Source: Candidatus Tectomicrobia bacterium
GTDB lineage: Bacteria > UBA8248
Direction of reading: 5' to 3'
Assembly: GCA_016192135.1 (NCBI GenBank)
Contig: JACPUR010000018.1
Location: 10,673-74,672, forward strand
Length of the DNA stretch: 64,000 nucleotides
Shown piece after piece: positions 28,927 to 40,656 of this stretch. Each line of letters opens with the position of its first letter. Within the stretch, counting starts at the first letter, position 1. The notes below the pieces were generated by a model that was given only the letters and a program-made list of their open reading frames with translations, was not told the DNA's origin and did no database searches. The position numbers and the translations under genes are program-made.

Positions 28927-29700
28927 ATGCCCTCCCTCCCCCGCCTCTCCCTCGCCGCCTGCCTCCTCGGGGCCCTCCTCGCCGGCTGCGCGCCCGGCTC
29001 CACCGTCAGCGACGAGGCCTGGAAGGCGCTCTCCGACTCCATCCAGAAGGAGTTCGACCTCCTCGTCCAGGAGTTCGACGCCCTCGACGCCCGGGGCGAC
29101 CTCGAGCTCTGCCAGCCCGTCCAGTTCGCCGTGGCCCGCTTCGCGGTCTACCAGGTAATCGAGGAGAGGCGGGCCTCCGACCTGACCCAGCTCACGCGGC
29201 TCATCACGCGGGCGCGCCGGGCGCTGCGCTTCCCCCAGCAGGCCCTGCGGGACAAGCAGTGCGTGGACAGCGACGGGGACGGGCTGACCGACCTGGAGGA
29301 GGTCCGGGTCCATAAGACCCACCCCGGCAAGGCCGACACGGACGGGGACGGCCTCCAGGACGGGGACGAGGTGCGCCGCCACCGCACCGACCCCCTCAAG
29401 CTCGACACCGACGGCGACCTGCTGGGGGACGGCGAGGAGGCGCTCTTCTACAAGACCTCGCCCCTGCGCGCGGACTCGGACGGGGACGGCTACCCCGACG
29501 GCCTGGAGGTCTTCCTCGGGAGCGATCCCCTCGACCCCTGCTCCCTCCCCAAGGGGCAGGAGGACAAGCGGCTCCCCGGGCCCTACACCCAGTGCCGCCC
29601 GAGGCCCCCGGGCGCCGCGCCGCCCCCCCGGCCCTTCGCGCCGAAGCCCGCGCCGCGGGCGCCGGGCGGCCTTCCCGCCCCGCCTTCATCCGTGCGATGA
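28927..29700 (+). CDS. Lipoprotein with calcium-binding (thrombospondin-3-like) repeats
   Basis: A 257-residue lipoprotein: signal with lipobox LLAGC near residue 22, a helical region (about 30-110), then four Asp-rich repeats of the type [36 protein letters not shown] and [12 protein letters not shown], which bind calcium, and a Pro-rich tail. ATG 28927 gives a proper signal sequence. It would sit at the outer membrane or cell surface as a rigid calcium-stabilised stalk; the partner is unknown. Confidence 0.82.
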
Positions 29701-29747
29701 TGCGCGGGGAACCGGACACATCTCAGCGGACTCATTCGGAGGCGGAA

Positions 29748-31436
29748 ATGGCACAGCGGGTGCGGCTCAACCAATACAGCAGCCGGGTGACGGAACCCCT
29801 CTCCCAGGCGGCCTCCCAGGCCATGCTGCACGGGGCGGGCCTGGACGAGCAAGACATGAAGCTGCCCCAGGTGGGCATCGTGAGCATGTGGTGGGAGGGC
29901 AACTCCTGCAACTTCCACCTGAACGACCTGGCCAGGCTCATCAAGGAGAGCGTGAACGAAGGCAAGAAGATGGTGGGCCTGTGCTTCAACACCATCGGGG
30001 TGAGCGACGGCATCTCGATGGGGACCGAGGGCATGAAGTACTCCCTCCAGTCGCGCGACATCATCGCCGACTCCATCGAGACGGTGGTGGCCGCCCAGTG
30101 GTACGACGCGGTCATCACCGTCCCCGGCTGCGACAAGAACATGCCCGGCTCGGTCATCGCCATGGGCCGGCTGAACCGCCCCGGCCTCATGGTCTATGGG
30201 GGCACCATCAGCCCGGGCTTCCTGGACGGGCGGAAGCTCGACGTCGTCTCCGCCTTCCAGGCCTACGGCGAGTACATCGCCGGGCAGATCGGGGAGAAGG
30301 AGCTCAAGGACGTCATCCGGCACTCCTGCCCCGGCGCGGGGGCCTGCGGGGGCATGTACACGGCCAACACCATGTCCTCCTCCATCGAGGCCCTGGGCAT
30401 GAGCCTCCCCTACAGCTCCACCAACCCGGCCACGAGCAAGGAGAAGCGCAAGGAGTGCCTGAGCGCCGGGAAGGCCATCTACAACCTGATGGAGAAGGAC
30501 ATCCGCCCGCGCGACATCATGACGAAGAAGGCCTTCGAGAACGCCATCACCGTCGTCATGGCGCTCGGCGGCTCGACCAACGCCGTCATGCACTACATCG
30601 CCATCGCCAAGTCGGTGGGGGTGCGGCTCTCCCTGGACGACTTCCAGCGCATCAGCAACCGCACGCCCTACCTCGCCGACCTCAAGCCGAGCGGGAAGTA
30701 CGTGATGGAGGACCTCCACGGCGTGGGCGGGCTCCCCGCCGTGCTCAAGATGCTCCTCAAGGAGGGCCTGCTGCACGGGGACTGCCTCACCGTCACCGGC
30801 CGCACCCTCGGCGAGAACATCGAGGCCCTCCCCGGCCTCAAGAGCGATCAGAAGATCATCTCCCCGCCCTCCCGGCCCCTCAAGAAGACCGGCCACCTGC
30901 AGATCCTCTACGGCAACCTCGCCACCGAGGGCGCCGTCGCCAAGATCACCGGCAAGGAGGGGGAGCGCTTCGAGGGCCCGGCGCGCGTCTTCGACTCCGA
31001 GGAAGCCGCGCTCAAGGGCCTCGAGCGGAAGAAGATCAAGAAGGGGGACGTGGTCGTCATCCGCTACGAGGGGCCCAAGGGCGGCCCCGGCATGCGCGAG
31101 ATGCTCACCGTCACCGCCGCCATCATGGGCGCGGGCCTGGGCAACGACCTGGCCCTCATCACCGACGGGCGCTTCTCGGGCGGCACCCACGGCTTCGTGG
31201 TGGGCCACGTCACCCCGGAGGCCCAGATGGGCGGCCTCCTCGCCCTGATCGAGAACGGGGACAAGATCGTCATCGACGCCCGGAAGCGCGCCCTGACGCT
31301 GGAGGTGCCCGCCGCCGAGATCCGGGCGCGGCGGAAGAAGTGGAAGGCGCCCGCCCTCAAGTTCAAGCGCGGCACCCTCTACAAGTACGCCAAGCTCGTC
31401 TCCTCGGCCTCGGAGGGCTGCGTCACGGACGAGTGA
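29748..31436 (+). CDS. ilvD: Dihydroxy-acid dehydratase
   Basis: A 562-residue iron-sulfur dehydratase of branched-chain amino-acid synthesis (dihydroxy acid to 2-keto acid). Cluster cysteines are visible in [27 protein letters not shown] and [12 protein letters not shown], and the C-terminal [17 protein letters not shown] is intact. Length matches the family. The start at 29748 has GGAGG five bases upstream; the frame is open upstream but that is non-conserved sequence. No other ilv gene is nearby. Confidence 0.93.
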
Positions 31437-31613: not shown

Positions 31614-32075
31614 CTATTTCTTCCGCCTCGCCGCGAGGAACTTCTCGAAGTACTTGGTGAGCGGGTTGGTGGTCCAGTCGAAGTTGAGCCTCTTGGCCAC
31701 CTCGAGCGTCTCTTCCGCCGTCCAGTCCTGCGCCTCGGCCTCGTGCATCAGCGAGCAAACCCCGGCCCGCCCGAGGACCCTTCAGTGGACGAACACGGGC
31801 CCTTCCCGCTTGGCATCGGCGATGGCCCGGTTCACCTGGGCGGCGGATTCCTCGGCGATGGTCTGAGCCGTCAGGGGAATGTTGACGTAGTTCATTCCGA
31901 GGGACTCGATCAGGTCCTTCTCCTGCCCGGGGGGAAGGTGCACCTCCTCCTCGTTGGCGTCCCGGACGTTGATGATCGTCTTCACGCCCTTCTTGGCCAG
32001 CTCCTGCAGCTCCTCCGCCGTGGGCTGGCCGCCGAACGACAGCTTGTCCGATAGGTCACGGTATTGCATGGCCAT
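31614..32075 (-). CDS. DUF442 (PTP-like) phosphatase with Sec at the catalytic Cys
   Basis: A 153-residue protein if UGA at 31784-31782 (codon 98) is read as selenocysteine. The part before it is a standard DUF442 / beta-lactamase-hydrolase-like phosphatase domain (LSFGGQPTAEELQELAKKGV, TIINVRDANEEE). The signature loop then reads VFVHURVLGRAGV where relatives have HC-x4-R, so the UGA falls exactly on the nucleophile. The frame goes on for 55 further codons with family-like sequence (CSLMHEAEAQDWTAEETLEV) before TAG. ATG 32075 has GGAGG eight bases upstream. Ending at the UGA would remove the catalytic loop. Selenocysteine at this site in a DUF442 phosphatase is not something I know to be described. 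Confidence 0.75.
31760..31776 (-). promoter_or_regulatory. Possible SECIS hairpin of the DUF442 gene
   Basis: On the minus strand, five bases after the UGA, CCTCGG pairs with CCGGGG around a GCGGG loop. The loop lies about 12 bases from the UGA, nearer than in the usual bacterial SECIS, so this is weaker than the hairpins of the two DsbA-like genes. Confidence 0.35.
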
Positions 32076-32116
32076 GGATGGTTCCTCCGACGGACGCAGG
32101 GCCGAATGGGGGAGCG

Positions 32117-32959
32117 TCATCCCCGTTGCACGATCTCCCGGTAGCGCATGAGGCGCTTGATCCTGTCCTCGCTGCCCTCTCGCTGGCAGATGCCGATGAG
32201 GTTGTTGAGCATCCGCTCCACGATGCGGCGCGGCGGGGTCTCCTGCAGGAAGCGCAGGTCGAAATGATACCCCAGCCCGCGCACGATGGCGTCGCAGTCC
32301 TGCACGCTGAGCCGGCGGCCCCCCTCGAAGGGGTCGAGGAAGATGGGCCCCTCGGGCGCCTCGTACTTGACGATGAAGTGGCCCGGCATCCCCACCCCCC
32401 GGAAGGGGAGGTCCAGCCGCCGCCCCAGCATCAGGTAGACGGACGCGAGGGAGATGGGAATCCCCCGCCGCCGGTCGAGCACGCGGTTCATGTAGCTGTT
32501 CTTGGGATCATAATAGTTGTCCCGGTCGCCGTCGAAACGCAGCTCGCCGTGCAGGTACTCGGCCGTCCTCTCGACGATCTCCGCCGGCGCCGCCCCCTTC
32601 CCCAGCCGCAACCGCAGCGCCTCCGCCATCCGATCGAGCTCCGCCTCCCACCGTCCCATGTCCTCGAGCGGATAGCCGTAGGAGGCCAGCAGGAAGACGC
32701 CCCGCTCCAGGTCCCCCTCCTCGGGAGCCGCGACGGCCCAATCGGCGAAAGCGCGCTCCAGCATCCGGTGGTGGTGGTCCTCCAGGGCGGGCGGAAGGAC
32801 CGCCGGCCCCCGCCCCTCCCCGCGCAGCCGGAGGAGAAGCCGGTCCCGGTCCTCCTCGGAGAAGCCGGCGAGCTGGCGATCCAGGACGGCGGTGATGGAG
32901 GGGCGCTCATCCTCCAGCAGCAGGCAGAGGGCGCCGAGCTGGGCGTCGGTCAAGGGCAT
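32117..32959 (-). CDS. SirB1-family (transglutaminase-like/TPR) protein
   Basis: A 280-residue SirB1-family protein. The conserved core DPKNSYMNRVLDRRRGIPIS followed by LASVYLMLGRRLDLPFRGVG and MPGHFIVKYE is clear; N-terminal 100 residues are helical. Function is not established, though members are broadly conserved in bacteria. ATG 32959 has GGGAGG five bases upstream, and a promoter is visible at 33000-33028. The DUF442 gene follows 41 bases downstream on the same strand and is probably cotranscribed. Confidence 0.83.
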   Translation of the reverse strand: MPLTDAQLGALCLLLEDERPSITAVLDRQLAGFSEEDRDRLLLRLRGEGRGPAVLPPALEDHHHRMLERAFADWAVAAPEEGDLERGVFLLASYGYPLEDMGRWEAELDRMAEALRLRLGKGAAPAEIVERTAEYLHGELRFDGDRDNYYDPKNSYMNRVLDRRRGIPISLASVYLMLGRRLDLPFRGVGMPGHFIVKYEAPEGPIFLDPFEGGRRLSVQDCDAIVRGLGYHFDLRFLQETPPRRIVERMLNNLIGICQREGSEDRIKRLMRYREIVQRG

Positions 32960-32999
32960 GGGGGCCTCCCTTCCCAGGCGACCGGGGAACTCCTTCCCT

Positions 33000-33028
33000 A
33001 TGATAAGATCACCCGCGGCCATTCCCAA
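33000..33028 (-). promoter_or_regulatory. Promoter for the SirB1-family gene
   Basis: On the minus strand TTGGGA (33028-33023), a 17-base spacer and TATCAT (33005-33000, five of six matches) would start transcription about 34 bases before ATG 32959. The rest of the 337-base gap 32960-33296 holds no convincing gene. Confidence 0.55.
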
Positions 33029-33296
33029 GTTGAAATTTTTGGCATTCCCGGTGGGGGCGATTGACAAGTTTCATTCATGGCTTGCCGCGCCCGCTCCCGC
33101 TTTTTTCACGCCAGGAGCCACCTCCGGCGGATTTCACATGATCCAAGCGGGCGGAGGAGAGAAAGCCGCCTATTGACGCAGCCCGAATCCCGGGCGCGTT
33201 TGGGGCTGCGGCGGCGGTTTTGTCGTGTGTAAGCGGGGAAAATCGAATCCGGAAGATCGGGTTAAACCCTTACCCGCCATCCGGCAGGAGGCACGC

Positions 33297-40023: not shown

Positions 40024-40656
40024 ATGAGCCAGCTGGAAGAACCCATCATCGTCGTCAAGTACTCCGACTTCACCTGACCCTACTGCTACGTGGCCACCGT
40101 GGGTGGCTCCCCGATCCTGGAGAAGGATCCCGACGTGAAGGTGGAGTGGGTGAGCTGGGAAGGGCGGCCCCCCGGCGCCCCGTTCGCGCCCTATACCCCC
40201 GAAAAGCGGCTCGAGAACTACGAGAAGGTCCACAAGCCCCTGGCGCAGAAGTACGGGGTGCCCATCGGCCCCGCCGGGAAGAACCTCCGCACCACCAGCG
40301 CCCACCTCGCCACCTACTACGCCCGGGAGCGGGGGAAGCTCCGCGAGTTCCGCGACCGGGTGTACAAGGCGCGCTGGGTGGAGGATCTGGACCTGGAGAG
40401 CCCGGACGTTCTCGCCAAGCTGGGCGAGGAGGTCGGGCTGGACGGGGCGGAGATCAAGAAGGTGGTGGCCGGGCAGCGCTACCTCGCCCTCCTGCACAGC
40501 CAGCGCGCCCAGGGGAAGAGCCTCGGCATCTTCGGCATCCCCTCCTTCGCCGTGCGGGGGAAGATCTTCTGGGGGCAGGACGTGATCGAGGAGGTGCGCC
40601 AGGAGGTGGCCCGCCTCAAGCGGGAGCTCCTGGAGAAGCAGAAGCAGAGCGCCTGA
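40024..40656 (+). CDS. DsbA/FrnE-like thioredoxin-fold selenoprotein (UPYC)
   Basis: ATG 40024 follows GAGGAGG. The reading frame meets TGA at 40075-40077 (codon 18) and then runs to 40656. Around the UGA the product reads IIVVKYSDFT-U-PYCYVAT, the standard DsbA/FrnE first strand and active site with Sec in place of the first Cys (CPYC to UPYC). The rest is a typical thioredoxin-fold protein with helical insertion (KPLAQKYGVPIGPAGKNLRT) and cis-Pro loop IFGIPSFAVRGKIFWGQD. Total 210 residues with Sec. No signal peptide, so it acts in the cytoplasm as a dithiol/selenol oxidoreductase or isomerase. A SECIS-like hairpin starts 15 bases after the UGA. A strong terminator follows. Confidence 0.82.
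40093..40107 (+). promoter_or_regulatory. Putative SECIS hairpin
   Basis: GCCACC (40093-40098) and GGTGGC (40102-40107) form a perfect stem with GTG loop, beginning 15 bases after the UGA, so the loop lies about 22 bases from it. The stem base sequence GGCCAC is at the same offset as in the selenoprotein gene at 15559-16212. Confidence 0.65.

Follow-up and report, generated by a model that had tools for sequence, protein, structure and literature searches.

The locus described here raises the question of how an in-frame TGA codon is read when it falls exactly where a DUF442 protein has its catalytic nucleophile, and of what the resulting protein would do. The gene occupies positions 31614..32075 on the minus strand of the 64,000-nucleotide stretch of DNA that was analysed (the window) and contains 153 codons, including one in-frame TGA. 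All of its elements are given on that strand. The ATG start codon is at 32075, with an alternative in-frame ATG at 32069, and is preceded at a distance of 7 nt by a GGAGGA sequence resembling a ribosome-binding site, which was read directly from the sequence (32083..32088); the stop codon is TAG (31616-31614). Codon 98 (31782..31784), the sole internal TGA of the gene, is found in the context VFVH-U-RVLG-R and occupies the nucleophile position at the head of a six-residue active-site loop, U98-R-V-L-G-R103 (U-x4-R; 31767..31784), from where 55 sense codons lead to the TAG. A preliminary description of this DNA had given the same coordinates, had placed the UGA exactly at the nucleophile of the loop and had described the frame beyond it as open for 55 family-like codons; all of this holds, the likeness to the family being borne out by a Pfam match after read-through, and the gene was found to run on the minus strand.

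Upstream, the gene is adjoined across a gap of 41 nt by a Transglut_core2 gene (32117..33067, minus strand), with which it is probably co-transcribed, while its downstream side faces the convergent ilvD gene for dihydroxy-acid dehydratase (29592..31436, plus strand). ilvD is kept beside Sec-DUF442 orthologues, in either orientation. A position between a Transglut_core2 gene and ilvD is shared by the orthologues of genera g3, g5 and g6; the genus mate G002 retains ilvD but has an FAD oxidoreductase gene as the upstream neighbour instead. The neighbours of the window gene, transglutaminase-like and ilvD, give no indication of sulfur metabolism. The ilvD gene next door terminates in TGA, which shows that this codon acts as a stop elsewhere in the genome of the window. 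This would speak for a reading in which codon 98 is a true stop, leaving a 97-residue protein or a pseudogene, or else is a sequencing error or a codon for another amino acid.

The codon was followed through related genomes. A read-through search of relatives recovered 22 homologues, all with a TGA and with 37-99% identity to the query, from 16 genomes, namely the genome of the window and 15 of 17 family relatives, many of the compared genomes being fragmented assemblies and close relatives of one another. Two copies are present in five genomes of genus g5 and in one of g1. Of the two remaining family genomes, G005 yielded no homologue and G003 only a distant one of the Cys type. The TGA falls in one alignment column in 22/22 homologues, and no other column is all-TGA; independent assemblies agree on TGA at codon 98. 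After the TGA and beyond the hairpin described below, dN/dS ranges from 0.15 to 0.65 and is below 1 in all ten pairs where it is defined, so that the second half of the gene must be translated and constrained. None of the objections foreseen in the preliminary description arises: where Cys codons occupy this site, the orthologue belongs to another species, and no decay is seen beyond the TGA.

A wider profile search yielded one TGA-bearing match outside the family of the window, in genome G280. In the phylum of that genome, of which 149 genomes were searched, a TGA lies within a full-length match in 16 genomes and the frame is intact in 5. The five intact-frame genes (L117, L123, L125, L126 and L133) use TGC or TGT as the nucleophile codon, and their Cys proteins align over the whole length with the TGA genes, which hold the TGA at the same column; the TGA of G461 was counted from the search table, and the other second-phylum genes were read one by one. 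The swap between Cys and UGA that had been proposed as a check is found, with TGA in 22/22 homologues of the window's family and 16 TGA genomes vs 5 Cys genomes in the second phylum. Altogether, 38 genes, drawn from many assemblies and two phyla, keep the TGA. In a third phylum, 100 genomes carry DUF442, with no internal stop among the matches listed. All distant homologues that were aligned have Cys or TGA at the nucleophile column, and the search of viral contigs returned only distant homologues of the window's clade (clade 1), clade 2 having no homologue there. When 63 proteins were placed on a tree, the clade of the window came out as one well-supported group (98/91), which adjoins the Cys protein L070 and is close to the second clade with Sec; at least four changes between Sec and Cys are counted on this tree without direction, that is, without separating gain from loss. 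Sec and Cys orthologues occurring within one phylum lend themselves to a direct comparison of what selenium contributes to a nucleophilic active site that binds anions.

Bacterial SECIS elements are defined by a stem-loop that directly follows the UGA on the 3' side (PMC9312934). In the window gene, a SECIS-type hairpin with a 7-bp stem and an 8-nt loop, CGGGGTTT (31750..31771, minus strand), begins 10 nt past the TGA and is supported by pairing and by synonymous constraint. Folded alone, it has no extra stability with respect to shuffled sequences (z 1.65), and a longer competing fold is present; the case for the hairpin therefore rests on comparison. An Rfam search of the window gave no SECIS match. 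In clade 1, the stem GGCGRGC/GCUCGCU with its eight-base loop can be formed by all sequences, and 100% of the 140 cells from 20 distinct sequences are paired, against 31-56% when the partner strand is slid. Covariation is uninformative in this clade because five of the seven stem pairs never vary. Codon usage was compared in pairs of clade 1 sequences at shared amino acids encoded by four or more codons: the same codon is used in 82% of cases in the hairpin and in 46% elsewhere, and the hairpin codons GCC, GGG and TCG are invariant in 22/22. As judged from these comparisons, synonymous constraint is better evidence for the clade 1 hairpin than covariation. In the second phylum, the hairpin of the TGA genes carries a GGUC loop, shows 98.8% of cells paired, includes two compensated pairs (GC/CG and CG/UA) and has a covariation score that was matched by 0/500 shuffles. 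In the five Cys orthologues, the corresponding region is 76.7% paired, which does not exceed the pairing at a slide of 3, a comparison limited by n=5. The predicted hairpin of the second phylum decays, on this evidence, in the Cys genes.

Regarding the selenocysteine machinery, the genome of the window contains selA (540 bits), selB (389 bits) and a tRNA-Sec (74.8 bits) for which ARAGORN gives the anticodon tca. A search for selD in its assembly (G000, 96.8% complete) found none; the best SelD match there looks, in our reading, like ThiL and lies beside a thiE-like gene. A Sec-type selD with an in-frame TGA is present in 14/18 family genomes, both genus mates included, and the missing SelD probably reflects an assembly gap. 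In the second phylum, selA is present in 16/16 TGA genomes, and also in 4/5 Cys genomes (G479, G491, G446 and G464), so that the use of Cys is not simply due to loss of the Sec machinery. In three genomes of family f264 (G414, G415 and G416), the Sec-DUF442 gene was seen about 4 kb from selA, and in G414 (L143) a selB-like gene lies between the two.

Because of the conserved TGA, the SECIS-type hairpin, the Cys/TGA swaps among orthologues and the Sec machinery, codon 98 of the window gene almost certainly encodes selenocysteine, and the replacement of the catalytic Cys by Sec put forward in the preliminary description is strongly supported. A stop, a pseudogene, an error or another amino acid is extremely improbable given the 38 genes in two phyla, the Cys found elsewhere at the same column, the purifying selection downstream, the conserved hairpin and the presence of the machinery.

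The same description had called the protein a PTP-like phosphatase. With the TGA read through, the window protein matches Pfam BLH_phosphatase/DUF442 (PF04273) with 31.6 bits (cut-off 26.1) and PTP-NADK with 41.1 bits (cut-off 27). An AlphaFold2 model built from 37 sequences, with Sec modelled as Cys, has a mean pLDDT of 93.3, and the modelled fold is PTP-like. The best Foldseek match of the model is 2f46; the top structural matches are the DUF442 proteins 2f46 and 3gxg, with PTP/DSP phosphatases next. The DUF442 structures 2f46 and 3gxg/3gxh are annotated as putative phosphatases and differ from the window protein in having a Cys nucleophile; their function comes from annotation only. Five positions, Q17, R38, E42, C/U98 and R103, are invariant in the 37 Sec and Cys sequences. 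Matches to the PTP-like fold reach Z 18.5, and most of the neighbours in structure are genuine PTP/DSP phosphatases, TpbA and Tk-PTP among them; together with the phosphatase names of the Pfam matches above cut-off, they speak for a Sec-dependent phosphatase in which the selenolate would attack a phosphate ester and form a Se-phosphoryl intermediate.

Such an enzyme is nevertheless unlikely. The PTP loop is C-x5-R, and all aligned Sec members carry U-x4-R, one residue shorter, in place of this PTP/DSP signature; several proteins with an x5 loop occur among the homologues. The six-residue loop is compatible with a phosphatase too and does not exclude one. No phosphate-linked neighbour was seen at the examined loci, and the DUF442 domains that have been studied biochemically are sulfurtransferases. 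In Xylella Blh, the DUF442 half acts as a sulfur transferase (PMC5823870), and the DUF442 domain of the C. pinatubonensis (Cupriavidus) SQR is a rhodanese with the loop CRTGTR, in which a change of the Arg at the loop end costs about 95% of the activity (PMC8533005). Both belong to the same family as the window protein, with the same modelled fold and the nucleophile in the active-site loop, and the C-x4-R of the Cupriavidus domain has the same length as U-x4-R; they differ in using Cys and in being fused to an ETHE1 dioxygenase or to SQR, whereas the window protein uses Sec and is free-standing. Active rhodanese-fold domains carry Cx4R/T or Cx5R (PMC10135228), and 2f46 itself has served as a rhodanese template for DUF442 (PMC6441731).

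The NCBIfam matches point in the same direction. Two models match 22/22 proteins, both of them sulfur transferase models and both below cut-off. NF040641, the Blh bifunctional sulfur transferase/dioxygenase, scores 69.2 bits against a cut-off of 625 and is matched over positions 3-129 of 423; the window protein is a single domain without the fused ETHE1-type dioxygenase and thus falls outside this family. The TIGR01244 sulfur transferase model reaches 45.8 bits (best E among the 22 members 4.5e-16) against a cut-off of 85.85, so the protein is not filed there and the claim is limited to its working like such an enzyme. The PTP-like fold of the earlier label therefore stands, while its phosphatase part, weakly supported by the fold and the Pfam names, gives way before the x4 loop, the NCBIfam matches and the enzymology of DUF442; "phosphatase" is probably the wrong name for the Sec-DUF442 proteins.

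On the strength of the U-x4-R loop, the NCBIfam matches, the DUF442 enzymology, 2f46 and an operon with an OsmC-type gene described below, we favour, at a probability of roughly 65%, a selenium-dependent sulfurtransferase engaged in reactive-sulfur or redox handling. Sequence comparison strongly supports the insertion of selenocysteine at codon 98 by SelB and tRNA-Sec, with the hairpin just 3' of the UGA as the signal, which places Sec98 in the six-residue U-x4-R anion-binding loop of the PTP-like fold, where it would act as the nucleophile. The sulfur-transfer chemistry, substrates and role that we infer for the enzyme would be as follows. Sec98 would take sulfane sulfur from a donor, which may be thiosulfate, glutathione persulfide or polysulfide, forming a selenosulfide (Se-S) intermediate with the help of R103 and the backbone amides of the loop, and the sulfur would then be handed from this intermediate to a thiol or to sulfite.

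A Sec redox enzyme, reducing peroxide, disulfide or persulfide through a selenenylsulfide perhaps formed with Cys107 and with OsmC-like partners, appears slightly less likely still than a phosphatase. A redox function is assumed for the majority of known selenoproteins (PMC13188914), a Sec-OsmC gene stands in the same operon in one genus, and Cys107 (TGC, 31755..31757, minus strand), which would complete a U-x8-C arrangement, is invariant in clade 1. This residue is absent, however, from the second Sec clade, and its conservation is confounded because the TGC codon lies inside the hairpin, where constraint on the RNA may explain it; moreover, no peroxidase-type motif was seen.

Among the known systems closest to a selenium-dependent sulfurtransferase of the DUF442 type are the Sec rhodanese-like proteins (PF00581, forms 1-5 of a 2026 inventory), in which Sec is likewise predicted in a sulfurtransferase-type protein. 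These belong to a different family: the window protein scores E 0.2 to PF00581 and has the PTP-like DUF442 fold. Of the 119 prokaryotic selenoprotein families or subfamilies listed in a review of May 2026, five are rhodanese-like, and DUF442, PF04273 and tyrosine phosphatases are absent. None of the NCBIfam selenoprotein models fits the 22 proteins, one member giving a weak HesB match (E 0.058), and a full-text literature search for selenocysteine with DUF442, of incomplete coverage, found no paper. The absence from the 119-family inventory agrees with the preliminary remark that a Sec DUF442 protein was not known to be described, although priority is not certain. The family of enzymes and the mechanism of recoding are both known, and their combination is apparently undescribed. 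If the reading is correct, the selenoproteins, among which thioredoxin-like folds predominate (PMC13188914), would gain a family with the PTP fold, and annotations would be corrected, ordinary gene calling truncating these proteins at the TGA.

The paralogues provide further context. In genus g5, an OsmC-type gene with an in-frame TGA (GFULLT) lies 22 bp upstream of the Sec-DUF442 paralogue and was read in two genomes (L142:3535-4098 and L136:3802-4365, plus strand). Its score of 164.8 bits lies above the cut-off (95) of the NCBIfam OsmC-related (seleno)protein NF041052 (UxxT), which is, like Sec-DUF442, a selenoprotein, but an already known one with an unrelated fold. The pair is apparently an operon of two selenoproteins. 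It is conceivable, and we put it forward tentatively, that the dedicated role of Sec-DUF442 is to carry sulfur (or selenium) as a selenosulfide, perhaps for partners such as OsmC-type selenoproteins, with DUF442 constituting an unlisted selenoprotein family of at least two phyla.

In G002 (L139:44-3671, plus strand), a divergent Sec-DUF442 copy was observed near genes for an Fe-S protein, a molybdopterin enzyme and a DMSO-reductase-type chaperone, the molybdopterin enzyme being closest to the thiosulfate reductase PhsA, below the cut-off of that model. The contexts of the paralogues fit reactive sulfur or redox handling as thin hints. The neighbours of clade 2, a prolyl oligopeptidase and an exonuclease, were inspected and gave no functional clue. 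Finally, the window itself contains a DsbA-like gene (PF01323; 40024-40656, plus strand) with a TGA (40075-40077) at the first active-site position, DFT-U-PYC, and this UPYC gene is probably a second selenoprotein gene within the window.
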